From: Bordetella genomosp. 5 | Lineage (GTDB): Bacteria; Pseudomonadota; Gammaproteobacteria; Burkholderiales; Burkholderiaceae_B | NCBI RefSeq assembly: GCF_002261475.1 | Contig: NZ_NEVN01000009.1 | Location: forward strand, 310,001 to 374,000 | Length of the DNA stretch: 64,000 nucleotides | Direction of reading: 5' to 3' | Shown: positions 27,310 to 43,706 of the stretch, one piece after another | Layout of the letters: every line of letters begins with the position of its first letter | How positions within the stretch are numbered: the stretch's first letter is position 1 | Notes under the pieces: model-generated | Database searches by the model: none | What the model was told of the DNA's origin: nothing | The model's input: the letters and a program-made list of their open reading frames with translations, nothing else | Program-made: the position numbers and the translations under genes

Positions 27310-27642
27310 TCAGTGACTGATCATCCAGGGTCGTGCCCCGGCGAACGTCTTGCCGCCGTCGGCCGTGCGGCGCGTCTTGGAAGGCAGTTTGCCCCCCTGG
27401 CAGCAACCGCAACCCATCCCATGGCCGCCACGCGAGCTGCGCGGTTCGGCCGCGTTGCGCTCGTTGAGGGCGCGGGCGCGGTTGACCGCCGAGGACAGCG
27501 CCGACACCGCCGGCGCGCCACTGACGTACCGCGCGCACGATGCGCCGCAGTCCGGGCAGGCCGCCGGATCGCGCCACTGTGCCAATGGCCTCAGCACGGC
27601 GAACTCGCCGCACGCTTCACACCGGTAATCGTAGAGCGGCAT
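27310..27642 (-). CDS. fmdB: FmdB family zinc-ribbon protein
   Basis: A 110-residue protein starting MPLYDYRCEACGEF, the signature of the FmdB/CxxC-CxxC-SSSS zinc-ribbon family (C-x2-C near residues 8-11 and CPDCG near 29-32). FmdB was described as a putative regulator of formamidase expression in Methylophilus. A second Cys-rich patch (GMGCGCCQGG) lies near residue 75. It starts at ATG 27642 with GAGGAGA upstream, 10 bases after the formamidase stop, and is the last gene of the operon. Confidence 0.9.
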   Translation of the reverse strand: MPLYDYRCEACGEFAVLRPLAQWRDPAACPDCGASCARYVSGAPAVSALSSAVNRARALNERNAAEPRSSRGGHGMGCGCCQGGKLPSKTRRTADGGKTFAGARPWMISH

Positions 27643-27652
27643 GCCGGTCTCC

Positions 27653-28882
27653 TCAGCGGTCCTGGGCGATGGGCATGTCGACGTCGCCCTTGATGTGTTT
27701 GACGGGACCGGACGCCTGCGGCTGGATGTCGAACTCGAAGATCTCGGTCGGCAGCCACAGGGTGGCGCAGGCATTGGGAATGTCGACCACCCCGCTGATG
27801 TGCCCCTGCACCGGCGCCGTGCCCAGGATCGAATACGCCTGAGCGCCGGAATAGCCGAACTTCTTGAGATACTCGATCGCGTTGAGGCAGGCCTGCCGGT
27901 AGGCGATGTGCACGTCGAGGTAATGCTGCTTGCCACCTTCGTCGACCGAGATCCCCTCGAAAATCAGGTAATCCTTGTAGTTGGGCACGATCGGGCTGGG
28001 CTTGAAGATCGGATTGCGGATGCCGTACTTGTCCATCCCGCCCTTGATGAGCGAGACCCGCATGTGCACCCATCCCGCCATCTCGATGGCGCCGCAGAAG
28101 GTGATCTCGCCATCGCCCTGCGAAAAATGCAGGTCGCCCACCGAGAGCCCGCCGCCCTTCACATACACCGGGAAAAACACGCGCGAGCCCCGCGACAGAT
28201 CCTTGATGTCGCAGTTGCCGCCGTGCTCGCGCGGCGGCACCGTGCGCGCGCCCTGGGCCGCGGCGCGGTCGCGCGCCTCCCCTTGCAGCTTGCCCATGTG
28301 GGCGGTCTTGGGCGCCGGCGGATTGGCCAGCGGCGGCACGCGGTCGGGTTCGGTGTCGATCAACGCCTGCTCGCGCTTGTTCCACGTATCGAGCATGGCC
28401 TGATCCGGCAGGCAGCCGATCAGCCCGGGATGGATGAGGCCGGCGAAGCGCACGCCGGGGATATGGCGCGAGCGCGTGAACATGCCCTCGAAGTCCCAGA
28501 TGGATTTCTGGGCCAGCGGAAAGTGATCCGTCAGGAAGCCGCCGCCGTTCTTCTTGCTGAAGAAGCCGTTGAAGCCCCAGAGGCTGTCGGGCTTGGCGCC
28601 GATGTCGAGCAGATCGACGACCAGCAGATCGCCGGGCTCCGCGCCTTCGACGCCGACCGGCCCGGACAGGAAATGCACCGTGGAAAGATCGACGTCGCGC
28701 ACGTCCGAGGCGTCATCGTCGTTCTTGATGGCGCCGCCGGTCCAGTCGTAGGTCTCGAGCACGAAGTCGTCGCCCGGCTTGACCCACACCGCCAGCGGGA
28801 TGTCGGGGTGCCAGCGGTTGTGCACCATCTCGTTCTCGTAGGGCGATTGCGCCAGGTCCACCTTGATCAACGTTTCAGGCAT
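27653..28882 (-). CDS. fmdA: Formamidase / acetamidase
   Basis: A 409-residue amidase of the FmdA/AmdA family, which hydrolyses formamide (and short aliphatic amides) to ammonia and the acid. Family blocks are visible: NRWHPDIPLAVWVKPGDDF, DLLDIGAKPDSLWGFNGFF, RFAGLIHPGLIGCLP and GNCDIKDLSRGSRVFFPVYV. The length matches the Methylophilus enzyme. It is preceded by the five-gene urea/amide ABC transporter operon and followed by fmdB, so imported amides would be hydrolysed here to supply nitrogen. Confidence 0.94.
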   Translation of the reverse strand: MPETLIKVDLAQSPYENEMVHNRWHPDIPLAVWVKPGDDFVLETYDWTGGAIKNDDDASDVRDVDLSTVHFLSGPVGVEGAEPGDLLVVDLLDIGAKPDSLWGFNGFFSKKNGGGFLTDHFPLAQKSIWDFEGMFTRSRHIPGVRFAGLIHPGLIGCLPDQAMLDTWNKREQALIDTEPDRVPPLANPPAPKTAHMGKLQGEARDRAAAQGARTVPPREHGGNCDIKDLSRGSRVFFPVYVKGGGLSVGDLHFSQGDGEITFCGAIEMAGWVHMRVSLIKGGMDKYGIRNPIFKPSPIVPNYKDYLIFEGISVDEGGKQHYLDVHIAYRQACLNAIEYLKKFGYSGAQAYSILGTAPVQGHISGVVDIPNACATLWLPTEIFEFDIQPQASGPVKHIKGDVDMPIAQDR

Positions 28883-28915: not shown

Positions 28916-29608
28916 TCAGACCGACAGGTACTTGCTGATCGACTGCTCGTCGACGTTATCGCGCAGGTCTTCGTGAACGAATCGGCCCTTGTCGATGACG
29001 ATCAGACGATCCGCGATCTGCATCGTGAAACTGAGTACCTGCTCCGACACGACGATCGCCAGGTTCTTGAGCTGGCGGATCTCGAGCAGGCTGCGCGCGA
29101 TGTCTTTGATGATGGACGGCTGGATGCCTTCGGTGGGCTCGTCCAGCAGCAGCACCTTGGGCTCGGTCACGAGGGCCCGCGCGATCGCGAGTTGCTGCTG
29201 CTGTCCGCCCGACAGATCGCCGCCGCGCCGGTTGCGCATGTCGTGCAGCACCGGAAACAGCGCGTAGATATCCGCCGGCACGGCATCGCGCAGCGCCCGC
29301 CCGCGCAGGCCGGTACGGATGTTCTCCTCGACCGTGAGCGTGGGAAAGATCATGCGGCCCTGCGGCACATAGGCCACGCCGCTGCGCACACGCTGGTGGC
29401 TTTCCAGGCCGCCGAGGTCCTTGCCATCGATCGACATCGAGCCGTGCATCGCGGGCAGCAGTCCCATCAGGGTCTTGAACAGCGTGGTCTTGCCCATGCC
29501 GTTGCGCCCCATGATCGCCACGATCTCGCCCTGCCCCACATGCAGGTCCACGCCGTGGATCACCCGGCTCTGGCCGTAGCCCGACATCAGCCCGTTTACG
29601 TTGAACAT
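28916..29608 (-). CDS. urtE: Urea/short-chain amide ABC transporter ATPase UrtE
   Basis: A 230-residue ATPase of the LivF type. Walker A GRNGMGKT is at residues 34-41, the signature is LSGGQQQQLAIARAL, and Walker B is VLLLDEPTEGIQPSI, whose EGIQPSI wording is characteristic of UrtE. It starts at ATG 29608 with GGAGG upstream; the longer frame to 30031 is out of register with urtD and discarded. It works with UrtD under the UrtB/UrtC permease. Downstream is fmdA. Confidence 0.93.
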   Translation of the reverse strand: MFNVNGLMSGYGQSRVIHGVDLHVGQGEIVAIMGRNGMGKTTLFKTLMGLLPAMHGSMSIDGKDLGGLESHQRVRSGVAYVPQGRMIFPTLTVEENIRTGLRGRALRDAVPADIYALFPVLHDMRNRRGGDLSGGQQQQLAIARALVTEPKVLLLDEPTEGIQPSIIKDIARSLLEIRQLKNLAIVVSEQVLSFTMQIADRLIVIDKGRFVHEDLRDNVDEQSISKYLSV

Positions 29609-29625
29609 TTCGCCTCCGTGGCCCG

Positions 29626-30365
<740 letters not shown>

Positions 30366-30369
<4 letters not shown>

Positions 30370-31487
30370 GCTGCCTCCGTCACACCGCTGCCCGTATCGG
30401 CCTTGCGCCTGCGCGCCAGCCGGGGCTTGATGTACTGACCGTACAGGCCGGCCAGACCGTTGGGAAACGCCATCACCACCGCAATGAACAGACCGCCCAT
30501 CAGGAACAGCCACAGCTGCGGAAAGCTTTCCGAGAAGTAGCTCTTGCCGAAGTTCACCAACAGCGTACCGTACACCGCGCCCAGCAGCGAGAGCCGGCCG
30601 CCCACCGCGGCGAAGATCACCATCTCGATCGAGGGCACGATGCCGACGAAGGACGGCGACATGAAGCCGACCTGCAGGGTGAACATCGCCCCGCCGATGG
30701 CCGAGAACACGGCCGCCACGCAGAACACGAACACCTTGAAGCTCGCCACGTCGTAGCCCGAGAAGCGCACCCGCTCTTCCTTATCGCGCATCGCCATCAG
30801 CAGCTTTCCGAGCTTGGAGGCGAGCAGAAAGCGGCCGATCAGGATGCAGGCGAACAACAGGCCGCCGTTGATGAAGTACAGCGTCAGGCGCGCGCTATCG
30901 GTGCGGATGTCCCAGCCGAGCAGGGTCTTGAGATCGGTGATGCCGTTCACCCCGCCGGTCCAGCCCTGCTGGCCGATGATGAGCACCGACAGGATCAGCG
31001 CCACGGCCTGCGTCACGATGGCGAAGTAGGTGTCGCCCACCCGCCGCTTGAACATCGCGAGCCCCAGCACCAGCGCCAGCAGGCACGGCACCAGCGGCAC
31101 CGCCATCAAGGTGAACCAGAAGCTCTTGAAGGGCACCCAGAACCAGGGCAGCTCCGTCAGCTGGTTCCAGTCCATGAAGTCCGGGATGCCCGGCGTGGAC
31201 TGGATCTTGGTGGCCTCCGGCGTGGAGGCTTCCAGCTTGAGGAACATCGCCATGCAATAGCCGCCGAGACCGAAGAACACGCCCTGCCCCAGGCTCAGGA
31301 TGCCGCCATAACCCCAGCACAGCACCAGCCCCAGTGCCACGAACGCATAGGTCAGGTATTTGCCGATCAGATTGAGCCGGAACACGTCCAGCGCCAGCGG
31401 GAACACCACGAATATCAGCGCGGCGAGCAGCCCCAGGCCGATGAGGCCGTGGCGTCCGCCCAGCACGTTGCGATAGAGCGTCTGCAT
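30366..31487 (-). CDS. urtC: Urea/short-chain amide ABC transporter permease UrtC
   Basis: A 373-residue permease of the LivM type with about ten helices. The opening after the first helix (GKYLTYAFVALGLVLCWGYGGILSLGQGVFFGLGGY) and the motif GGVNGITDL match UrtC proteins. The start is the ATG at 31487, with GGGAGAC about 6 bases upstream; the longer frame to 31886 lies within urtB. It pairs with UrtB as the membrane channel. The C-terminus is basic (KPRLARRRK). Confidence 0.92.
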
Positions 31488-31504
31488 GAAGGTCTCCCGT
31501 CGAT

Positions 31505-32422
31505 TCACTTGCGGACCTTGACGCTGAACAGGCCCTGCGGGCGCAGCATCAGGATGAGGACCACCGCCGACAGCGTGAGCACCTTGGCCATGGAACCGGT
31601 CATGAAGAATTCCGACACCGACTGCGTCTGTGCGATGACGAACGCGGAGGCGATGGTGCCGAACAGGCTCGCGGCGCCACCGAACACCACGGTCAGGAAG
31701 GTGTCGACGATGTAGAGCGATCCGCTGGTGGGCCCGGTGGAGCCGATCGTGGTGAATGCCGCGCCCGCGATGCCGGCAATGCCGCAGCCCAGCGCGAACG
31801 TGAGGCGATCGACGCGCTTGGTGTCGATGCCGACCGCGCCGCTCATGGCGCGGTTCTGCACCGTCGCGCGCACATGCAGCCCCCAAGTGGAACGAAACAG
31901 CGCGAGCAGCAGGCCGGCCGTCAGCACCAGGGTGATGGACATGACGAACAGCCCGTTGATCGGAATGTCCACGCCGTCCAGCGGCTGCCAGGAGCCCATC
32001 AGCCAGTCGGGCAGCGTGGGGCTGACCTCACGCGGGCCGAAAAGCGATCGGAGCGACTGCTGCAGGATGAGTGATAGCCCCCAGGTCGCCAGCAGCGTGT
32101 CGAGCGGGCGGCGGTAGAGATGGCGGATCATGGCCCACTCCACCAGCCATCCCAGTGCGAAGGTCACGGCAAAGGCCAGCGCGATGGCAAGGAAGAAGTA
32201 CACGGGCATCAGGCCGGGCGCGAACTGCTGCACCAGGTCGGACAGCAGATACGTGCAGTACGCACCCACCGCGAGGAACTCGCCGTGCGCCATGTTGATG
32301 ACGCCCATCTGGCCAAAGATGATGGCCAGCCCCAGCGCCATCAGCAACAACACGCTGAACACCGACAAGCCGTTGAAGCCCTGCATCAGCAGAATGGCCC
32401 CGAGGTCGGAGAAGGATTCCAT
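31505..32422 (-). CDS. urtB: Urea/short-chain amide ABC transporter permease UrtB
   Basis: A 305-residue LivH-type permease with about eight helices. IIFGQMGVINMAHGEFLAVGAY near residue 35 is the family signature, and RATVQNRAMSGAVGID near residue 190 marks the UrtB branch. It follows urtA by about 80 bases and precedes urtC by 17. E. coli LivH homologues carry branched amino acids, but the UrtB-type wording plus the fmdA neighbour points to urea or amides. Confidence 0.93.
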   Translation of the reverse strand: MESFSDLGAILLMQGFNGLSVFSVLLLMALGLAIIFGQMGVINMAHGEFLAVGAYCTYLLSDLVQQFAPGLMPVYFFLAIALAFAVTFALGWLVEWAMIRHLYRRPLDTLLATWGLSLILQQSLRSLFGPREVSPTLPDWLMGSWQPLDGVDIPINGLFVMSITLVLTAGLLLALFRSTWGLHVRATVQNRAMSGAVGIDTKRVDRLTFALGCGIAGIAGAAFTTIGSTGPTSGSLYIVDTFLTVVFGGAASLFGTIASAFVIAQTQSVSEFFMTGSMAKVLTLSAVVLILMLRPQGLFSVKVRK

Positions 32423-32503: not shown

Positions 32504-33775
32504 TTACTGATAACCCTTGGGGAAGGGATCGGGCTTGATGAGATCCGCGGTTTCGTAGATCACGTTGAACTGACCATCCTTGCGGATCTGGCCGATGCGC
32601 GTCTTGCTCCAGAGATGGTGGTTCGGATCGATCTTGACGTAGCCTTCGGGCGCTTCCTTGAACTCCAGGTTCGCCGAGGCCGCCACGACCTTGTCGACAT
32701 CGAAGCTGCCGGCCTTCTCGACGGCCATCTTCCAGAGCCACGGCCCGAGGTACGCGGCCTGGGTCACGTCGCCGATCACGGCGTTGGCGCCGTACTTGGC
32801 CTTGAACGCCTCGACGAATTTCTTGTTGTTGGGGTTGTCCAGGCTCTGGAAGTACTTCATGCACGACCAGAAGCCTTCGGCGTTTTCGCCGCCGATCCCC
32901 AGCAGCTCGTCTTCGGTGACCGAGATCGTGAGCAGCTTCTGCTTGTCGCTGGTCACGCCGGCCGCCTTGAGCTGCTTGTAGAACGACACGTTGCTGCCGC
33001 CCACCACCACGGCGAAGACCACGTCTGGCTTGCGCAGCTTGATCTTGTTGATCAGCGAACCGAACTGCGTGTGGCCCAGCGGGTAATACTCCTCGCCCAC
33101 GACCTGGCCCTTGAGCACGTTTTCGATGTGCTTGCGGGCGATCTTGTTCGACGTGCGCGGCCAGATGTAATCCGAGCCGATCAGGTAGAAGCTCTTGGCC
33201 TTCTGCTCGCGTGCCAGCCAGTCCAGGCTCGAGAGGATTTGCTGCGTGGCCTCCTGCCCCGTGTAGAACACGTTCTTGGATTGCTCCAGGCCTTCGTAGA
33301 AGGTCGGGTAGTAGAGCAGGCCGTTTTCCTTCTCGAACACCGGCAGCACCGCCTTGCGCGAGGCCGAAGTCCAGCACCCGAACACGGTCGCCACCTTGTC
33401 GCTCACCAGCAGCTTGCGCGCCTTCTCGGCGAAGGTCGGCCAGTCGGACGCGCCGTCTTCCTGGATGACCTTGATCTTGCGGCCCAGGATCCCGCCCATC
33501 GCGTTGATCTGCTCGATCGCCAGGCGCTCGGACTGGATCGATCCCGTTTCGCTGATGGCCATCGTGCCCGTGGCGGAATGCAGCTGGCCGACGGTGACCT
33601 CGGTGTCGGTAATGGCGAGGCCCGTGGTGTTGATGGCGGACGTGGCCGGGGCGGCCGCCCGCGCCAGGGCCGGAACGCCCAGCAGCGGCAGGCCGGCCAG
33701 GGTCAGCGCGACACGGCGGCGCGAGGGCGACACGGGGCCTGCGCCGGCCCGATCGAAGGGGGATTTGCCAGACAT
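32504..33775 (-). CDS. urtA: Urea/short-chain amide ABC transporter receptor UrtA/FmdD
   Basis: A 423-residue periplasmic receptor. The signal region is unusually long, with SRRRVALTLAGLPLLGVPALARA and a likely cleavage after ARA/AAA near residue 41; RRR before the core hints at Tat or a long Sec signal. The mature part follows UrtA/FmdD/AmiC receptors (VGQLHSATGTMAISE, EDGASDWPTFAEKARKLL, VFGCWTSASRKAVLPVFE). First gene of urtABCDE-fmdA-fmdB. ATG 33775 is preceded by AGGAGTT. Urea and short amides are the expected ligands; which one cannot be read from sequence. Confidence 0.93.
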   Translation of the reverse strand: MSGKSPFDRAGAGPVSPSRRRVALTLAGLPLLGVPALARAAAPATSAINTTGLAITDTEVTVGQLHSATGTMAISETGSIQSERLAIEQINAMGGILGRKIKVIQEDGASDWPTFAEKARKLLVSDKVATVFGCWTSASRKAVLPVFEKENGLLYYPTFYEGLEQSKNVFYTGQEATQQILSSLDWLAREQKAKSFYLIGSDYIWPRTSNKIARKHIENVLKGQVVGEEYYPLGHTQFGSLINKIKLRKPDVVFAVVVGGSNVSFYKQLKAAGVTSDKQKLLTISVTEDELLGIGGENAEGFWSCMKYFQSLDNPNNKKFVEAFKAKYGANAVIGDVTQAAYLGPWLWKMAVEKAGSFDVDKVVAASANLEFKEAPEGYVKIDPNHHLWSKTRIGQIRKDGQFNVIYETADLIKPDPFPKGYQ

Positions 33776-33882
33776 CGGGGAACTCCTAACGAGAGATCAC
33801 GACCAGGGAAACCGAGCATGTGCGGAGCAGACCGCGGCCCGGAGCTTGGGTGCATACTAGGAACCCATGACGCACTGCAACA

Positions 33883-33941
33883 TACGTTGATTGACGTACA
33901 GGCACGCCGCGCCGCCCGGGCTACAAAACGTCGTACGTCAA
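33883..33941. promoter_or_regulatory. Inverted repeats in the divergent urtA / sensor-kinase promoter
   Basis: TTGACGTAC at 33891-33899 is matched by its exact complement GTACGTCAA at 33933-33941. The first arm also sits in a smaller palindrome (TACGT, 33883-33887, with ACGTA, 33894-33898), and the second in CGTCGT-ACGTCAA-ACGACG. These are good candidates for sites of the LuxR-type response regulator encoded at 37382, controlling both directions. No sigma-54 site was seen. Confidence 0.45.
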
Positions 33942-34008
33942 ACGACGCATGCCGCAAGCGCACTCATCGCGGCCGCGCCCTGTCCCGCGTCCTCGCCGGA
34001 GTCCTGTC

Positions 34009-37000
34009 TTGTCAACCAGTGCACCGCAACGCATCGTCAAGATTCGCCGCGACTACAACACCTGGGTCTCGAACGAGACCCTCGAAGACTATGCGCTGCG
34101 CTTCACGCCGGTGTCGTTTCGCAAGTGGTCGGAGTTTCGCGTGGCGAATACAGCCGTCGGCGCGGTGTCGTTCCTCGCCCTGGAGGCGATCGGCGGCGCG
34201 CTCGCGCTGAACTACGGATTCGTCAACGCGTTCTGGGCCATCGTGGCCGTGGCGATCGTCACCTTCCTGACGGGCCTGCCCATCGCGTATTACGCGGCGC
34301 GCGAAGGCCTGGACATGGACCTGCTGACGCGCGGCGCGGGCTTCGGCTACATCGGCTCGACCATCACCTCGCTGATCTACGCGTCGTTCACGTTCATCTT
34401 CTTCGCGCTCGAGGCGGCCATCATGGCGCTGGCCCTGGAGCTGGCGACGGGCCTGCCGCTCACGATCGGCTATCTGCTGTGCGCGGTGGTCGTGATTCCG
34501 CTCGTGACCTACGGCATCACCTTCATCAACCGCCTGCAGGCCTGGACCCAGCCGGTCTGGCTGCTGCTGTTGCTGCTGCCGTATGCGTTCATCCTGTTCA
34601 AGGATCCCGGCGCGGTCGCCGACTTCCTGCGCTTCGAGGGCTACGACGGCCGCGGCGGCAACTTCAACCTGCTCATGTTCGGCGCCGCGGTGGCGGTGGC
34701 CGCCTCGCTCGTGACGCAGATAGGCGAGCAGGTCGACTACCTGCGCTTCCTGCCGCCCCGCACGCGCGCCAACCGCGTGCGCTGGTGGGCCGCCCTGCTC
34801 TGCGCGGGCCCGGGCTGGATCCTGCCCGGCGCGGCCAAAATCCTGGGCGGCGCGTTCCTCGCCTACCTGGCGCTCGGGCACGGCGTGAGCGCCGAAAAGG
34901 CCGCGGACCCCAACCACATGTATCTGATCGCCTACGGCTATGTGGTCGACCATGGCGGGCTGGCGCTGGCACTGGTGACGCTGTTCGTGGTGGTGTCGCA
35001 GATCAAGATCAATGTCACGAACGCCTATGCCGGCTCGCTGGCCTGGTCCAACTTCTTCGCCCGCGTCACGCACAGCCACCCGGGCCGCGTCGTCTGGCTG
35101 GTGTTCAACGTGCTGATCGCGGTGGTGCTGATGGAGATGGGCGTGTTCGGCGCGCTCGAGCATGTGCTCGCGCTGTTCTCGCATGTGGCGCTGGCCTGGA
35201 TCGGCGCGCTGGTGGCCGACCTGGTCATCAACAAGCCGCTCGGCCTGTCGCCCGCCCGCATCGAGTTTCGCCGCGCCTATCTGTACGACATCAACCCCGT
35301 GGGCGTGGGCAGCATGCTGATCGCGATCTCGCTGGCGCTGCTGGCCTTCGCGGGCGTGTTTCCGGGTACGGCGGGCGCGCTGGCCCAGGCGCTGTCGCCG
35401 TTCGTGGCGCTGCTGGCCGCGTTTGCCTGCGCGCCGCTGATCGCCTGGGCCACGCGCGGGCGCTACAACCTGGCGCGCCCTCCGCAGGCCCTGCCCGGCA
35501 CGCAGGCGCTGGCCTGCGTGATCTGCGCCAACCCCTTCGAGCCGCCCGACATGGCGCATTGCCCGGCCTACAACGGCGCCATCTGTTCCTTGTGCTGCAC
35601 GCTGGACGCACGCTGCCACGACCGCTGCAAACCCCAGTCGCGGCTGCAGGACCAGGTCGGCGGCGCCTTGCAGCGCATCCTGCCCGCGGGTCTGAGCGGC
35701 GTGCTTCACACCCGTCTGGTGCACTACCTGCTCATCGTGAGCGGCATCGCGCTGTTGCTGGGCGCGATCCTGGGGCTGATCTATTACCAGGAAGCCGTGA
35801 GCTATCGTCATGCGGCGCTGGAACTCGCCACGCTGCGCGCCACCTTCTTCAAGCTCTACGCGGCGCTGCTTTTGATCGCCGGGGTGGCGGCCTGGTGGCT
35901 GGTGCTCACGCAGGAGAGCCGGCGCGTGGCGCAGGAAGAGTCGGATCGCCAGACCACGCTGCTGCTGCGCGAGATCGAGGCGCACGGCCACACCGACGCG
36001 CAGTTGCAGCAGGCGAAAGAGGCCGCCGAAAGCGCCAACCTCGCCAAGAGCCGCTTCATGAGCGGCATGAGCCACGAGCTGCGGGCGCCGCTCAACAGCA
36101 TCCTGGGCTATGCCCAGATCCTGCAACGCGACCCGACATTGCCCGCGCCGCGCCGCGAGGCCATCGACGTGATCCACCGCAGCGGCAGGCACCTGGTCGG
36201 CCTGATCGACGGGCTGCTGGATATCGCGCGGATCGAAGCCGGCAAGCTGCGCCTCGAGAACGGCGAGCTGCGCCTGCCCGAATTCCTGGAGCAGATGGTC
36301 CAGATGTTCCGGCCGCAGACCTCGCTCAAGGGCCTGCATTTCCGCTATGAGTGCGCGCCCGATCTGCCGCAGATCGTGCACATCGACGAGAAGCGTCTGC
36401 GCCAGATCCTGATCAACCTGCTCAGCAATGCGGTCAAGTTCACGCAGGCGGGCGAGGTGGCCCTGCGCGTCCAGTACGCCGCCGACATGGTGCAGTTCGC
36501 GGTGAGCGACACGGGCATGGGCATCCCGGAGGCCGACATGGAGCGCATCTTTCTGCCTTTCGAGCGCAGCTGGGCCGCGGCCGAACAGGCCGATACCGGC
36601 ACCGGGCTGGGCCTCACGATCTGCCGCATGCTCACCAACATCATGGGCGGCGAGATCCGCGTGCGTAGCCAGGTCGGCGCGGGCAGCACGTTCACGCTCA
36701 AGCTGTTCCTGCCCGAAGTGCGCTCGCCGCGCGGCGACGCGCGTCCCGCGGGACCGGTGATCGGCTATGAGGGCGAACGGCTGCGCATCCTCACGGTCGA
36801 CGATCAGGCGTCGCAGCGCCGTCTGGTCCGCGACATGCTCGAACCGCTGGGCTTCGCCGTGCACGAAGCGGACGGCGGACCCGCCTGCCTGGCGTGCGTG
36901 CACACGCTGCGCCCCGCCCTGATCCTGATGGACGTCTCGATGCCCGCGATGGCCGGCTGGGACGTGTGCCGCGCGTTGCGCGCCGAAGGCGTCGCGGTGC

Positions 37001-37413
37001 CTATCGTGATGCTGTCGGCCAATGTGCATGGCCTGGATCCCAAGGAGACCGCCCAGAGCGGCCACACCGACTTCATCGCCAAGCCCGTGATCCTCGATGA
37101 TCTGCTGGCGCGCATCGGCACGCATCTGCGCCTGCGCTGGATCACCGAGGCCGCGGCGCCGGTGCAGCCGGTGAGCGACGGCGAACTGCACGGCGTGGCG
37201 CTGGAACGCGAAGACGCCGAAGCGCTGCTCGAACTCGGCGCCATGGGCTACATCAAGGGCATTCTCGCCAAGCTCGACGAGATCGGCCAGCGGCAACCGC
37301 ACGCCGCACGGCTCACGCGCCACCTGCACACCCTGGCCAGCGAATTCCAGCTCGCCGAGTTCAATCGACTGCTCAAAGACCATGTACAGCGCCATCATGC
37401 CCTCGCCCGATAA
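34009..37413 (+). CDS. NCS1-permease-like hybrid sensor histidine kinase
   Basis: A 1134-residue protein. Residues about 40-480 are an NCS1 (nucleobase/hydantoin/allantoin) transporter-like domain of about 12 helices. An eight-cysteine module follows (Cys503, 506, 518, 526, 529, 530, 536, 540), then helices near 570-592 and 616-636. The kinase part has HisKA with His689 in MSHELRAPLNS and HATPase boxes NLLSNAVKF, DTGMGI and TGTGLGLTI. A receiver has phospho-acceptor Asp975 in LMDVSMP and Lys in FIAKPV, and a helical C-terminus may be a degenerate HPt. The start is TTG 34009, with GGAG 7 bases upstream; ATG 33949 has no such site. Divergent from urtA and overlapping its response regulator, it probably senses a urea-, amide- or nucleobase-like solute. 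Confidence 0.9.
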   Translation: MSTSAPQRIVKIRRDYNTWVSNETLEDYALRFTPVSFRKWSEFRVANTAVGAVSFLALEAIGGALALNYGFVNAFWAIVAVAIVTFLTGLPIAYYAAREGLDMDLLTRGAGFGYIGSTITSLIYASFTFIFFALEAAIMALALELATGLPLTIGYLLCAVVVIPLVTYGITFINRLQAWTQPVWLLLLLLPYAFILFKDPGAVADFLRFEGYDGRGGNFNLLMFGAAVAVAASLVTQIGEQVDYLRFLPPRTRANRVRWWAALLCAGPGWILPGAAKILGGAFLAYLALGHGVSAEKAADPNHMYLIAYGYVVDHGGLALALVTLFVVVSQIKINVTNAYAGSLAWSNFFARVTHSHPGRVVWLVFNVLIAVVLMEMGVFGALEHVLALFSHVALAWIGALVADLVINKPLGLSPARIEFRRAYLYDINPVGVGSMLIAISLALLAFAGVFPGTAGALAQALSPFVALLAAFACAPLIAWATRGRYNLARPPQALPGTQALACVICANPFEPPDMAHCPAYNGAICSLCCTLDARCHDRCKPQSRLQDQVGGALQRILPAGLSGVLHTRLVHYLLIVSGIALLLGAILGLIYYQEAVSYRHAALELATLRATFFKLYAALLLIAGVAAWWLVLTQESRRVAQEESDRQTTLLLREIEAHGHTDAQLQQAKEAAESANLAKSRFMSGMSHELRAPLNSILGYAQILQRDPTLPAPRREAIDVIHRSGRHLVGLIDGLLDIARIEAGKLRLENGELRLPEFLEQMVQMFRPQTSLKGLHFRYECAPDLPQIVHIDEKRLRQILINLLSNAVKFTQAGEVALRVQYAADMVQFAVSDTGMGIPEADMERIFLPFERSWAAAEQADTGTGLGLTICRMLTNIMGGEIRVRSQVGAGSTFTLKLFLPEVRSPRGDARPAGPVIGYEGERLRILTVDDQASQRRLVRDMLEPLGFAVHEADGGPACLACVHTLRPALILMDVSMPAMAGWDVCRALRAEGVAVPIVMLSANVHGLDPKETAQSGHTDFIAKPVILDDLLARIGTHLRLRWITEAAAPVQPVSDGELHGVALEREDAEALLELGAMGYIKGILAKLDEIGQRQPHAARLTRHLHTLASEFQLAEFNRLLKDHVQRHHALAR

Positions 37414-38311
37414 AAACCTCGTCATGCTGGTCGACGACGCGCCCGACAATCTCAAGATGCTGTCCACCGCGCTGGACGAGGCCGGGTACCGCGTGCTGAT
37501 CGCGACCGACGGCCTCAGCGCCATCGAGCGGGTGGATTACGTGGTGCCGGACATCGTGCTCATGGATGCCGTGATGCCCGGCATGGACGGTTTCGAGACC
37601 TGCGCGCGCCTGAAGGCCCATCACGCGGCCGCGCAGGTGCCGGTGGTCTTCATGACCGGACTCACCGACCCGGAGCATGTGTTGCGGGGCTTTCGCAGCG
37701 GCGGCGTCGATTACGTGACCAAGCCGCTCGACCCGGACGTGGTGCTGGCGCGCCTGGACACGCATCTGCGCAATGCGCGCCATCTGTCGGCGGCCTACGA
37801 TGCGCTGGACGCCGCCGCGCGCGCCGTGGTGGTACTGGACGCGCGGGGCCGCGCCATCTGGAAGACCGGGCGGGCGCGGCTGTGGCTGTCGGATTACCTG
37901 GGCAGCCCGGACGACGCTCCCGATCTGCCGGTGCCCCTGGCCGACTGGATCGCCAGCCATCTGCCGCAGGGGCCCGCCGCGCCGCCGTGGGTGGTGCCCG
38001 GCGTGCGCGGCAATCTGGTGGTGAGCCTGTCGGCCTCGCGCCGGTCGGGCGAAACGCTGCTGCTGCTCGAAGAACGCCCGCACCCCGCGCCCCCGTCGGA
38101 GTCGCTGGCCACCGCCTACGGCCTCACCCCGCGCGAGCTCGATGTGCTGGACTGGCTCGCCAAGGGCAAGACCAATCGCGACATCGCCGACATCCTGGGC
38201 ATGGCGCCGCGCACCGTGAACAAGCACCTGGAACACATATTCGTGAAGCTGGGCGTGGAAACCCGCACCGCCGCGGCGGCCATCGCGGCGCGCCACGCGG
38301 GCACCCGCTGA
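37382..38311 (+). CDS. LuxR-type response regulator
   Basis: A 309-residue cytosolic regulator. The receiver domain (about residues 12-130) has the acidic pair near 18-19, phospho-acceptor Asp62 in VLMDAVMPGMDGF, and Lys in YVTKPLD. A middle region (about 140-235) looks like a small PAS-like fold. The LuxR helix-turn-helix (LTPRELDVLDWLAKGKTNRDI...RTVNKHLEHIFVKL) spans about 243-300. It starts inside the 3' end of the hybrid kinase gene (32-base overlap; ATG 37397 is an alternative), so it is the cognate partner. Its likely target is the urt-fmd promoter and its own operon. Confidence 0.92.
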   Translation: MYSAIMPSPDKNLVMLVDDAPDNLKMLSTALDEAGYRVLIATDGLSAIERVDYVVPDIVLMDAVMPGMDGFETCARLKAHHAAAQVPVVFMTGLTDPEHVLRGFRSGGVDYVTKPLDPDVVLARLDTHLRNARHLSAAYDALDAAARAVVVLDARGRAIWKTGRARLWLSDYLGSPDDAPDLPVPLADWIASHLPQGPAAPPWVVPGVRGNLVVSLSASRRSGETLLLLEERPHPAPPSESLATAYGLTPRELDVLDWLAKGKTNRDIADILGMAPRTVNKHLEHIFVKLGVETRTAAAAIAARHAGTR

Positions 38312-38413: not shown

Positions 38414-38488
38414 CTCGCCGTAGTTAAACGGATATAACCGGCCCCTCCTAAGGGTCAATTGGTGGTTCGATTCCACCCGGCGAGGCCA
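38414..38488 (+). tRNA. tRNA-Arg (anticodon CCT)
   Basis: The acceptor stem CTCGCCG (38414-38420) pairs with CGGCGAG (38478-38484), with discriminator G and encoded CCA at 38486-38488. The D stem is GTTA/TAAC, the anticodon stem GGCCC/GGGTC encloses loop CTCCTAA with anticodon CCT, and the T arm is GGTGG-TTCGATT-CCACC. It decodes AGG, a rare codon in GC-rich genomes. tRNA genes are common integration sites, but no integrase gene is beside it. Confidence 0.95.
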
Positions 38489-41271: not shown

Positions 41272-42039
41272 TCAGTCCGCGCGGAACCGCTGCGCCAGCG
41301 CGTCGCAGTGCCGCACCAGAATGGCGGCGTCCACGCCCACGGCGGTGTACAGGCTGCCGGCGGCCATATAGCGGCGCGCCAGCGTTTCGTCGGGGGTGAG
41401 CACGCCGGGGGCCTTGCCCGCCGCGCGCACCCGCGCGATCGCCCCTTCCACCGCCGCCACCACCTTGGGATGCCCCGGCTCGCCGGGATAGCCCAGACTG
41501 GCGGCGAGATCGGCGGGGCCGATGAAGACGCCATCGACGCCATCCACCGCGATGATGGCGTCGAGGTTCTCGAGCGCCTCGCCGGTCTCGGCCTGCACCA
41601 GCAGGCAGAGTTCTTCTTCGCAGCGCCGCATGTAATCCGGCACGCGGCCATAGCGGGTGGCGCGCATGGTGCCGCTCACGCCGCGCACACCGCGCGGCGC
41701 GTAGCGCATGCCGGCCACCGCGCTCTCGGCTTCGGCGGCGTTCTGCACATAGGGCAGCAACAGGGTCTGCGCGCCGATGTCCAGGTACTGTTTGATCTGG
41801 ACCTTGTCGTTCCACGAGGGGCGGACCACGGCGTGGCTGCCGTAGCCGGCGGCGGCCTGCAGCTGCGCCATCACGGTGGGCAACACCACCGGCGTGTGCT
41901 CGGTATCGATCAGCAGCCAGTCGAAGCCGCTGGCCGCGACCAGCTCGGTGCTGTTGGGATGGCCCAGCGTGACCCACAGGCCAGTCTGGTGCCGCTGCTC
42001 GCGCAATGCGCGCTTGAACGGATTGATCGGGAGGTCCAT
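41272..42039 (-). CDS. hpaI: HpcH/HpaI aldolase (2-keto-3-deoxy-heptane-dioate aldolase type)
   Basis: A 255-residue class II pyruvate aldolase close to E. coli HpaI. HpaI splits 4-hydroxy-2-oxoheptane-1,7-dioate to pyruvate and succinic semialdehyde. Visible residues are the catalytic His in LIDTEHTP, Arg in VVRPSWNDKVQIKQ, the metal-binding Glu in LVQAETGEAL and Asp in GVFIGPADLAASLGY. It follows hpaH by 10 bases in the same operon. HpaI enzymes are promiscuous toward 2-oxo acids, so the real substrate here could differ. Confidence 0.92.
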   Translation of the reverse strand: MDLPINPFKRALREQRHQTGLWVTLGHPNSTELVAASGFDWLLIDTEHTPVVLPTVMAQLQAAAGYGSHAVVRPSWNDKVQIKQYLDIGAQTLLLPYVQNAAEAESAVAGMRYAPRGVRGVSGTMRATRYGRVPDYMRRCEEELCLLVQAETGEALENLDAIIAVDGVDGVFIGPADLAASLGYPGEPGHPKVVAAVEGAIARVRAAGKAPGVLTPDETLARRYMAAGSLYTAVGVDAAILVRHCDALAQRFRAD

Positions 42040-42049
42040 ACGCCGTGTC

Positions 42050-42832
42050 CTAGGAGAAGTGCACCGAGATGCTGCCGAGCTTGCCGTAGTCGGCGTGCAG
42101 GGTGTCGCCGCGCGCCACGGCCACCGTGCGCGTGAAGGAGCCGGCCAGCACGATGTGGCCCGCCTCCAGCCCGGTGTCGTGCAGCGCCAGCTTGTTGGCC
42201 AGCCATGCGATGCCCAGCGCCGGATGACCGAGCACCGCGGCCGACACGCCCGACTCCTCGATCACGCCGTTCTTGAAGAGCAGCGCGCCGACCCAGCGCA
42301 GATCGATGTCGAGCGGCCGCACCGGGCGGCCACCGAGCACGATGCCGGCGCAGGCGGCGTTGTCGGCGATGTTGTCGACGATCCGGCGCGGATACTTGCT
42401 GCGGCCATCGATCAGCTCGAGGGCGGGCACCACGTAATCGGTGGCGTCCAGCACATCGAACAGGCTGACGCCGGGCCCGCGCAGCGGCTTGCCCAGCACG
42501 AAGGCCAGCTCCACTTCGACGCGCGGCACGATGAGCTTCTCGGTGGAGATGGTCTCGCCGTCCTGGAAGAACATCGTGTCGAGCAGATGGCCGTAATCGG
42601 GCTCGTCGATGCCGACCGTGCTCTGCATCGCCTTGGAGGTGAGGCCGATCTTGTGGCCGCGCAGGCGCGCGCCTGCGGCCAGTTTCTCGTCGATGATGCG
42701 CTGCTGGATGGCGTAGGAATCGGCGATCTCGATGTCCGGGAAGACTTGATCGAGCTGCGTGGTCGGCACGCCGGTGCGCTCGGCCTCGATCAGCAGTTGC
42801 GCGGCGCGGTCGCGGTCGGCGTCATTCAGCAT
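42050..42832 (-). CDS. hpaH: 2-oxo-hept-4-ene-1,7-dioate hydratase
   Basis: A 260-residue hydratase of the HpaH/MhpD family that adds water to the 2-oxo-enoate formed in meta-cleavage pathways. Blocks LRGHKIGLTSKAMQSTVG, EPDYGHLLDTMFF, VPRVEVELAFVLGKPLRG, DVLDATDYVVPALELID and DNAACAGIVLGG follow E. coli HpaH nearly residue for residue. The metal-site Glu pair in VEVELAF is intact. The ATG at 42832 overlaps the stop of the FAH-family gene, so translation is coupled. Confidence 0.94.
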   Translation of the reverse strand: MLNDADRDRAAQLLIEAERTGVPTTQLDQVFPDIEIADSYAIQQRIIDEKLAAGARLRGHKIGLTSKAMQSTVGIDEPDYGHLLDTMFFQDGETISTEKLIVPRVEVELAFVLGKPLRGPGVSLFDVLDATDYVVPALELIDGRSKYPRRIVDNIADNAACAGIVLGGRPVRPLDIDLRWVGALLFKNGVIEESGVSAAVLGHPALGIAWLANKLALHDTGLEAGHIVLAGSFTRTVAVARGDTLHADYGKLGSISVHFS

Positions 42833-43706
42833 GCGAGGCTCCTGCAGGCGTGACGGCCTCGTCGGCCACCGGGTTGGACAGCACACCGATGCCCGAGACC
42901 TCCACCTCGACGACATCGCCGGGCTTCAAGAAGCGCGGCGGCGTGAAGCGCACGCCGGCGCCGATGGGCGTGCCGGTCGAGATCACGTCGCCCGGCTTGA
43001 GCGTGGTCCAGATCGAGATGTAGCGGATCAGCTCGGCAAACGGAAACATCAGGTTGTCGGTGCTGTCCTGCTGGCGCAGCTCGCCGTTGACGCGCGTGCT
43101 CACGGTCAGGGGCGCGGCCGGGTCGAACTCGTCGGCCGTCACCAGCCACGGCCCCATCGAGCCGCTGGCGTCGAAGTTCTTGCCCTGCGTCACATTGAAT
43201 TTGCCGTGCCGCAGCCAGTCGCGCACGGTGCCTTCGTTCAGGCAGGTCAGGCCGGCTACGTGCTGCCAGGCGTCCTCGGCGGCGATGCGCCGGCCGGTCT
43301 TGCCGATCACGATGGCGATCTCGCCCTCGTAATCGAGCTGCTCCGACTCGGGCGGACGCAGCAGCGCCTGGCCGTGGCCCACGAAGGAACCCGGAAAGCG
43401 CGGGAACACGCTGGGATAGGCCGGCGGCGCGCTGCCGTCCTGGTACTCCTCGTTGCGCTTGCCGTAGTTCACGCCCACGCAGATGATTTTTTCGGGCGCG
43501 AGAATCGGCGGCAGCAGCTGCACGTCGGCCAGCCGGTGCGTGACCGGGCGGGCCTGCGCGGCATGCGCCAGCTCGTCGAGCGCACCGGCTGCGAGCGCGG
43601 TGTGCAGGCTGGCGTGGCCCAGCTCGTCGAGCGCGACGATGTCGTGATCGCCGCGCAGCGCGCCGAAGCGCGTGCGGCCCTGATGCGAAAAGGTAAGCAG
43701 TTTCAT
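42822..43706 (-). CDS. Fumarylacetoacetate hydrolase family protein (HpaG/ureidoglycolate lyase-like)
   Basis: A 294-residue FAH-superfamily enzyme. The catalytic block is CVGVNYGKRNEE, followed by metal ligands in EGEIAIVIGKTGRRI and FNVTQGKNFDASGSMGPWLV, and the C-terminal DVISTGTPIGAG. In the homoprotocatechuate pathway the HpaG decarboxylase/isomerase supplies the HpaH substrate, and the gene order supports that role, but the same family includes many acylpyruvases. The start is ATG 43706, in a 4-base overlap with the amidohydrolase stop. Confidence 0.85.
   Translation of the reverse strand: MKLLTFSHQGRTRFGALRGDHDIVALDELGHASLHTALAAGALDELAHAAQARPVTHRLADVQLLPPILAPEKIICVGVNYGKRNEEYQDGSAPPAYPSVFPRFPGSFVGHGQALLRPPESEQLDYEGEIAIVIGKTGRRIAAEDAWQHVAGLTCLNEGTVRDWLRHGKFNVTQGKNFDASGSMGPWLVTADEFDPAAPLTVSTRVNGELRQQDSTDNLMFPFAELIRYISIWTTLKPGDVISTGTPIGAGVRFTPPRFLKPGDVVEVEVSGIGVLSNPVADEAVTPAGASHAE

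Follow-up and report, generated by a model that had tools for sequence, protein, structure and literature searches.

The locus described here raises the question of which compound is sensed, and which genes are controlled, by a histidine kinase whose N-terminal part resembles a membrane transporter. It lies in a 64,000-nucleotide stretch of the genome of Bordetella genomosp. 5 (assembly GCF_002261475.1, contig NZ_NEVN01000009.1, positions 310,001 to 374,000), hereafter called the window. The kinase gene and the gene of its LuxR-type response regulator are divergent from the genes urtABCDE-fmdAB, which encode a urea transporter and a formamidase (Table 1). The preferred reading, given a probability of roughly 0.78 on the basis of comparative sequence analysis, is that a transceptor-like kinase detects formamide, urea or short amides and, via the regulator, activates amide uptake and hydrolysis. 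The architecture, the fold, the linkage to urea and amide genes and a conserved palindrome with its spacing were established computationally.

One reading frame joins an estimated 12 or so transporter-like helices, a cysteine module, two further helices, HisKA and HATPase_c domains and a receiver, and overlaps the regulator gene. The first-pass annotation had described this arrangement and had placed the active residues at His689 and Asp975; open frames, Pfam and the structure model bear out both statements. By its HisKA, HATPase_c and receiver domains, with His and Asp in place, the fusion protein is a hybrid histidine kinase, and the product of the second gene, with a receiver and a GerE helix-turn-helix (HTH) domain, is a NarL/FixJ (LuxR-type) response regulator. 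An alternative in-frame ATG at 33949 would extend the kinase to 1154 residues; given a regulator start at 37382, the two genes overlap by 32 bases. In the predicted structure of residues 5-682 a helical transporter fold (about 21-480) is followed by a cysteine region with short strands and then by two long helices. The cysteine module has eight conserved cysteines and is kept in 19 of 19 aligned sequences; its 36 strong matches among 249 genomes of the phylum all lie in frames of 894-1247 residues. An Hpt domain at the kinase C-terminus was considered and dropped, as 17 aligned sequences showed no conserved histidine there.

Judged by the best tblastn match, conservation is higher in the transporter domain than in the kinase half at 79 of 79 loci (medians 70% and 46.5%; the kinase-half match at locus L087 is another gene), with many positions invariant across relatives. 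This bears on the idea that the kinase senses general nitrogen status, pH or ammonium rather than an amide, its transporter fold serving mainly as a membrane anchor. Ammonia repression of an fmd cluster, described in the accessible part of a review (PMC10781810), would fit such a sensor, but the conservation exceeds the needs of an anchor and disfavors that role; the idea is considered highly improbable.

Regarding the identity of the transporter domain, the first-pass annotation had proposed an NCS1 permease fold, and profile comparison prefers NCS1 over the alternatives. In hhalign with the wider profile the domain matched NCS1 with E=5.1e-9 over 356 columns, SSF with E=0.071 and NCS2 with E=0.65; an earlier comparison using 21 close sequences and 4 NCS1 sequences was weak for all three (E=0.0072, 0.059 and 0.38, respectively). 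The predicted structure has the CodB/Mhp1 fold, and when the Foldseek matches were re-examined with VIA-align the nearest structures to the model were CodB and Mhp1. Sequence searches of PDB and Pfam left the domain unplaced, and the Pfam SSF model (SSF/SLC5 domain) did not match the fusion protein. The only match to TIGR00800 was one kinase-less cousin, at 27.2 bits against a cut-off of 353.1. The stretch between transporter and kinase (35490-36040) had no Pfam match in a library whose content of a STAC model was left unchecked. Because PF02133 does not recognize the domain, it is treated here as NCS1-like, outside the Pfam family.

A scan of genome contigs found at least 584 relatives of the transporter domain, so the architecture is more than a chance product. 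A copy was called linked if a urt, fmd, urease or amidase gene lay within 10 kb. In the best 80 loci of these relatives, which carry 81 copies of the domain, 74 copies were linked; FmdA was near 52 of the 81, and the divergent urtA/kinase arrangement of the window recurred at 61 of the 80 loci. Since these loci are close relatives, two further samples were taken. The class sample (274 genomes) gave matches in 16 genomes, one of them weak and due to an ordinary permease, and 11 of 17 copies outside the Bordetella genome were linked; one of the 17 lacks a kinase (G263) and one (L120) is linked by a lone FmdC-like match. The phylum sample (249 genomes) was searched with the cysteine module, which matched strongly in 32 genomes with 36 copies. 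Linkage was found for 32 of 34 fetched copies, the remaining two, L156 and L260, being at contig ends, the latter with a partial UrtA; the count omits two of the 36, the window itself and G107, which lies beside urease genes and belongs to the class count. The expected association of homologues with urt and fmd genes thus holds for most copies. Neither outcome that the first-pass annotation had named as refuting its proposal, a clear assignment of the N-terminal domain to another family or a consistent lack of linkage, was observed.

The kinase lies behind or opposite a urease cluster at 13 loci (L044, L069, L070, L072, L076, L079, L084, L085, L110, L159, L160, L166 and L263) and beside genes labeled by eye as fmdC- and/or fmdD-like at six (L036, L119, L122, L165, L256 and L258). 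Urease labels, first assigned by eye, agree with PF00449 positions in G485, G506 and G419, and the AmiE and AmiF labels, also first assigned by eye, agree with annotated genes. UrtA exceeded its family cut-off in 9 of 12 genomes (11 with an unlinked copy, plus G052) and is therefore often present elsewhere in the genome. Plasmids carry the transporter domain as well: it occurs in 524 records, of which Klebsiella contributes 342, and hence may bear on enteric nitrogen use. One enteric plasmid was read, that of Enterobacter asburiae (L266), which carries urtABCDE followed by an AmiF-like formamidase in place of FmdA, with insertion sequence elements on both sides.

Some loci depart from the usual architecture. 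At L154 (7999-10656) and L155 (7663-10347) transporter and cysteine module are joined to another type of kinase, which is not a hybrid. A distinct gene downstream carries a receiver (by eye), fmdA-fmdB share the strand, and the palindrome is absent. At L087 (9992-12958) the domain is joined to a C-terminal half that lacks the usual HE-RxP box; the next two genes look receiver-like by eye, and no urea or amide gene was seen in the stretch; L087 and L109 are apparently one contig.

Relatives of the transporter domain without a kinase were found near urease, formamidase or amidase genes at six of eight loci read, seven of the eight coming from 18 records at 48% identity or more. The kinase-less protein of G263 has 559 residues and consists of the transporter domain and a cysteine tail; its gene precedes fmdA and an amiE-like gene and is divergent from the kinase, with the exact palindrome between them. 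A similar kinase-less gene on the Methylovirgula plasmid pHY1 lies between a kinase-regulator pair and an aliphatic amidase gene, with a formamidase gene on the kinase's far side; no full urt set was seen there. More distant cousins precede an aliphatic amidase gene, with acs two genes further (Arthrobacter U41), a urease cluster (Acinetobacter johnsonii) or, after two small genes, fmdA (Tsukamurella), or are divergent from fmdA-fmdB (Moraxella osloensis). For those of Streptomyces angustmyceticus and Arthrobacter NicSoilB11 no urea or amide neighbor was seen. The Arthrobacter U41 protein (L267) lacks most of the module cysteines. At L123 (4049-7713) amiE-like and amiF-like genes flank the gene of a stand-alone CodB-like permease; urtABCDE and urease genes are present in the same stretch.

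These cousins bear on a second alternative, namely that the NCS1-like domain recognizes a classical NCS1 ligand (hydantoin, allantoin or a nucleobase) whose product is handled by the urea and amide genes. It would agree with CodB and Mhp1 as nearest structures and with the names allantoin permease and cytosine permease carried by several cousins. However, the cousins adjoin urease, formamidase or aliphatic amidase genes, and the annotations of nine plasmid stretches list neither purine nor hydantoin genes (no dedicated search for such genes was made there or at the other loci); a classical ligand is considered quite improbable.

In a tree of 44 rows (midpoint root; L116, L117, L122 and L266 left out) a branch supported at 100/99 separates the 36 fused rows from the rest. 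Two cysteine-tailed kinase-less rows adjoin the fused ones and the other six stand apart. A permease that gained the cysteine tail first and the kinase second fits this tree, although the tree is no proof of it. A wider scenario, tentative and put at somewhat less than even odds, would comprise a family of NCS1-like permeases, present in Actinomycetota and Pseudomonadota, whose substrates are urea, formamide and short aliphatic amides; a branch of this family would have acquired the cysteine tail and then the kinase to become a true transceptor, carrying and reporting the amide, with a one-palindrome regulon (urt, fmd and ami) that is also plasmid-borne.

Regarding the ligand, the linked genes share a chemistry: urease, two unlike formamidases (FmdA and AmiF-like), aliphatic amidase and ABC transporters for amides and urea. 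Since all of these handle urea or short amides, such compounds are the common theme. The Bordetella genome (99.99% complete) has a single copy of the transporter domain; the urease alpha subunit was not found in it, and urea carboxylase is encoded on another contig (1956 bits). As the linked enzyme is a formamidase, formamide is the first choice for the ligand in this genome and urea the second, a preference drawn from gene content. As for the ligands listed in the first-pass annotation, the kinase-less cousins favor urea, formamide and short amides; hydantoin and purine found no backing among the genes annotated in the plasmid stretches, where no search aimed at them was made.

The shared urtA/kinase promoter contains the palindrome TACGTCA-N2-TGACGTA, whose conservation suggests a new operator. 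Its core at predicted operator 1 is the sole exact TACGT-N6-ACGTA in the 5.2 Mb genome. Of the regions between divergent urtA and kinase genes, 79 in all with that of the window included, the core was exact in 66, with one mismatch in 7 and two mismatches in 6. The background consisted of shuffles of each region, 50 each; one region, L039, gave 10 of 10 in a shuffle. A random-window control with the interval masked (30 exact sites in 3950) was not used as background, because 28 of 42 exact sites outside the intervals precede fmdA and are likely real sites.

The 129 loci (2.40 Mb, interrelated, window excluded) hold 108 exact sites, of which 107 precede urtA, kinase, fmdA, amiE, fmdC or fmdD: 66 in divergent urtA/kinase intervals, 4 more between urtA and kinase, 28 upstream of fmdA, 2 each upstream of amiE and of fmdC-like genes, 3 upstream of the kinase in a different context, 1 between kinase and kinase-less permease and 1 between an fmdD-like gene and the kinase; the last is inside a gene. 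On plasmids an exact site was present in three of five stretches, between urtA and kinase in Burkholderia vietnamiensis and Enterobacter asburiae and before an fmdD-like gene in Sinorhizobium meliloti; none was found in the Methylovirgula and Arthrobacter stretches scanned. The fuller pattern TACGTCANNTGACGTA occurred in 7 of 36 kinase-bearing genomes and in none of 18 genomes without the kinase, always either at the kinase locus or ahead of an fmdD-like gene that lies upstream of that cluster. The conserved palindrome thus supports the proposal, made in the first-pass annotation, that the kinase would control urtABCDE-fmdAB across the shared promoter.

The spacing of promoter elements was also regular. 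Hexamers resembling a -10 element peak exactly 39 bases from the palindrome (7 of 47 urtA-side and 8 of 52 kinase-side de-duplicated regions), while 300 shuffles never exceeded 4. The distance places the palindrome, by arithmetic, about 43 bases upstream of both expected transcript starts, a usual position for an activator. Predicted operator 2 lies over the point where the kinase transcript should begin, a placement suggesting that it may serve negative autoregulation of the kinase gene.

At some loci from other classes a variant, TACGCA-N4-TGCGTA (L168-L171, L254, L257 and L259), seems by eye to be paired with a changed recognition helix. A TACGCC-type site was seen in L070, L084 and L263, the last with the helix SPATVKKHLER.

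Several observations weigh against the preferred reading. Of the 17 copies in the class sample 6 are unlinked, as are 7 of 81 from the close relatives (several near contig ends), and the loci are mutually related, so that the counts are not independent. The NCS1 profile contained one permease (L123) recruited by a weak match to the window domain; at E<=10, PF02133 matched neither that domain nor 21 relatives, and the Bordetella genome contained no match to it. With urease alpha absent and urea carboxylase present, more than one amide stays a candidate ligand in this genome. No conserved histidine follows the receiver in the 17 aligned sequences, so that any role of the receiver is putative. 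Regarding the palindrome, 29 of 36 genomes with the kinase, that of the window among them, lack it in its exact 14-letter form. At up to one mismatch the site was found in none of 13 unlinked loci, and most urease-linked loci are without it as well; the 11 linked loci that lack it are mostly urease-linked (L044, L069, L070, L079, L084, L110, L154, L155, L159, L160 and L166), at one of which (G403) a site lies further upstream. The two-mismatch pattern is not above chance in the window (4 found, 5.1 expected), and the one-mismatch pattern is rarer genome-wide than its reversed control (16 versus 43).

The site-less copies and the missing exact form would be expected if another regulator bound the palindrome and the kinase-regulator pair were only nearby or controlled other genes. 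Against this, the site, where present, follows the kinase into varied settings, preceding fmdC, fmdD, a kinase gene located behind urease genes or a permease that has no kinase. None of the 18 kinase-free genomes contains it, and its variants seem, by eye, to go with variants of the recognition helix. Such a bystander role is improbable.

Under the preferred reading, with amide detection coupled to amide use, we infer the ligand, transport, phosphotransfer, and DNA binding with its sign. The input domain would be an NCS1-like (CodB/Mhp1-fold) relative of kinase-less permeases of urea and short-amide loci. Its conformation would shift on binding, and perhaps transporting, formamide, urea or a comparable small amide, and this shift would reach HisKA through the cysteine module, the extra pair of helices and a long helix. 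HisKA would then autophosphorylate on His689 and phosphorylate the LuxR-type regulator encoded in its operon, while the receiver inside the kinase would tune or drain the signal. The regulator would bind TACGTCA-N2-TGACGTA between urtA and the kinase gene and activate urtABCDE-fmdAB from a position about 43 bases ahead of the transcript start, while the second site, over the kinase transcript start, would perhaps mediate negative autoregulation.

Table 1. Features of the kinase locus and the divergent urea/amide genes (window positions)
Feature	Position	Strand	Basis or remark
fmdB-like small gene	27310..27642	-	open frame; matches genes annotated FmdB in two plasmid stretches
fmdA, formamidase	27653..28882	-	NF045496 equivalog, 772.1 bits, cut-off 500; Pfam FmdA_AmdA
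urtE (open frame; start likely near 29608)	28916..30031	-	TIGR03410, 331 bits, cut-off 285.8
urtD (open frame; start likely near 30369)	29626..30513	-	TIGR03411, 376.6 bits, cut-off 304.1
urtC (open frame; start likely near 31490)	30366..31886	-	TIGR03408, 439.8 bits, cut-off 296.2
urtB	31505..32422	-	TIGR03409, 401.1 bits, cut-off 250.3
urtA	32504..33775	-	TIGR03407, 539.1 bits, cut-off 492.75
-10-like TAGTAT, urtA side	33854..33859	-	39 bases from operator 1
Predicted operator 1, exact TACGT-N6-ACGTA	33883..33898	strand-neutral	pattern scan
-10-like TACAAA, kinase side	33922..33927	+	39 bases from operator 1; fails the counted hexamer rule
Predicted operator 2, one mismatch, over expected kinase transcript start	33934..33949	strand-neutral	transcript start inferred
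NCS1-like transporter/hybrid histidine kinase fusion	34009..37413	+	1134 residues from TTG 34009
NCS1-like transporter domain (sensor)	34021..35502	+	
Cysteine module	35503..35673	+	without Pfam family
HisKA, phospho-acceptor His689	36043..36243	+	Pfam
HATPase_c	36385..36711	+	Pfam
Kinase receiver domain, Asp975	36787..37116	+	Pfam Response_reg
Response regulator: receiver (Asp62) and GerE/LuxR-type HTH (about 38123-38287)	37382..38311	+	Pfam

All five subunits of the urea ABC transporter UrtABCDE exceed their NCBIfam cut-offs. A tRNA-Arg(CCT) gene (38414-38488) directly follows the regulator gene, and a catabolic cluster next door (41272-42850) encodes an HpaI-like aldolase, just below its cut-off, and an HpaH-type hydratase, above its cut-off.

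No NCS1-type sensor kinase and no urt-fmd sensor was found in full-text searches of open-license papers, in agreement with the first-pass annotation, which knew of no well-described system with an NCS1 sensor. For one genome a second urtABCDE operon beside LuxR-type two-component genes is reported, with a hybrid kinase in a figure legend (PMC13296017); the accessible portion of that account assigns it neither a transporter domain nor a function. GrtK/GrtR of Burkholderia glumae was considered as a counterpart and dropped, the sensor being PilS-like according to the part of the source at hand (PMC12918730). New here are the predicted operator, the extent of the linkage and the kinase-less cousins resembling urea/amide permeases. 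The cousins point to a group of urea/amide permeases that has as yet no name and in which several proteins are labeled allantoin or cytosine permease. The kinds of transporter-kinase are few (SLC5 and Amt were met in the literature), and an NCS1-like one would add a third family and point to repeated evolution. The kinase is a candidate sensor for the induction of fmd-type operons by urea and formamide, for which the accessible part of a review names only a putative regulator (PMC10781810), and the predicted operator makes the circuit testable.

Among known systems, the fmdCABDEF cluster of Methylophilus methylotrophus likewise pairs a formamidase with a binding-protein-dependent system that takes up short amides and urea, and is induced by formamide and urea; in the same part of that review a putative positive regulator, but no sensor kinase, is named (PMC10781810). 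Ks-Amt5, as far as the available excerpts describe it, also fuses a transporter domain for a nitrogen compound to a histidine kinase (PMC5764959, PMC12918730), but has the Amt fold, binds ammonium and belongs to an anammox bacterium (PMC5764959). CodB and Mhp1 share the fold and a remote sequence kinship with the kinase input domain, whereas they are stand-alone cytosine and hydantoin transporters without a kinase, and the window domain falls outside PF02133. CbrA and CrbS (SLC5-STAC), in the portions of the sources seen, similarly join a membrane transporter domain to a histidine kinase that acts on genes of solute use (PMC13022988, PMC5715377); their transporter is of the SLC5/SSF type and is followed by a STAC linker, whereas the transporter of the window protein is NCS1-like and its linker consists of the cysteine module and two helices.

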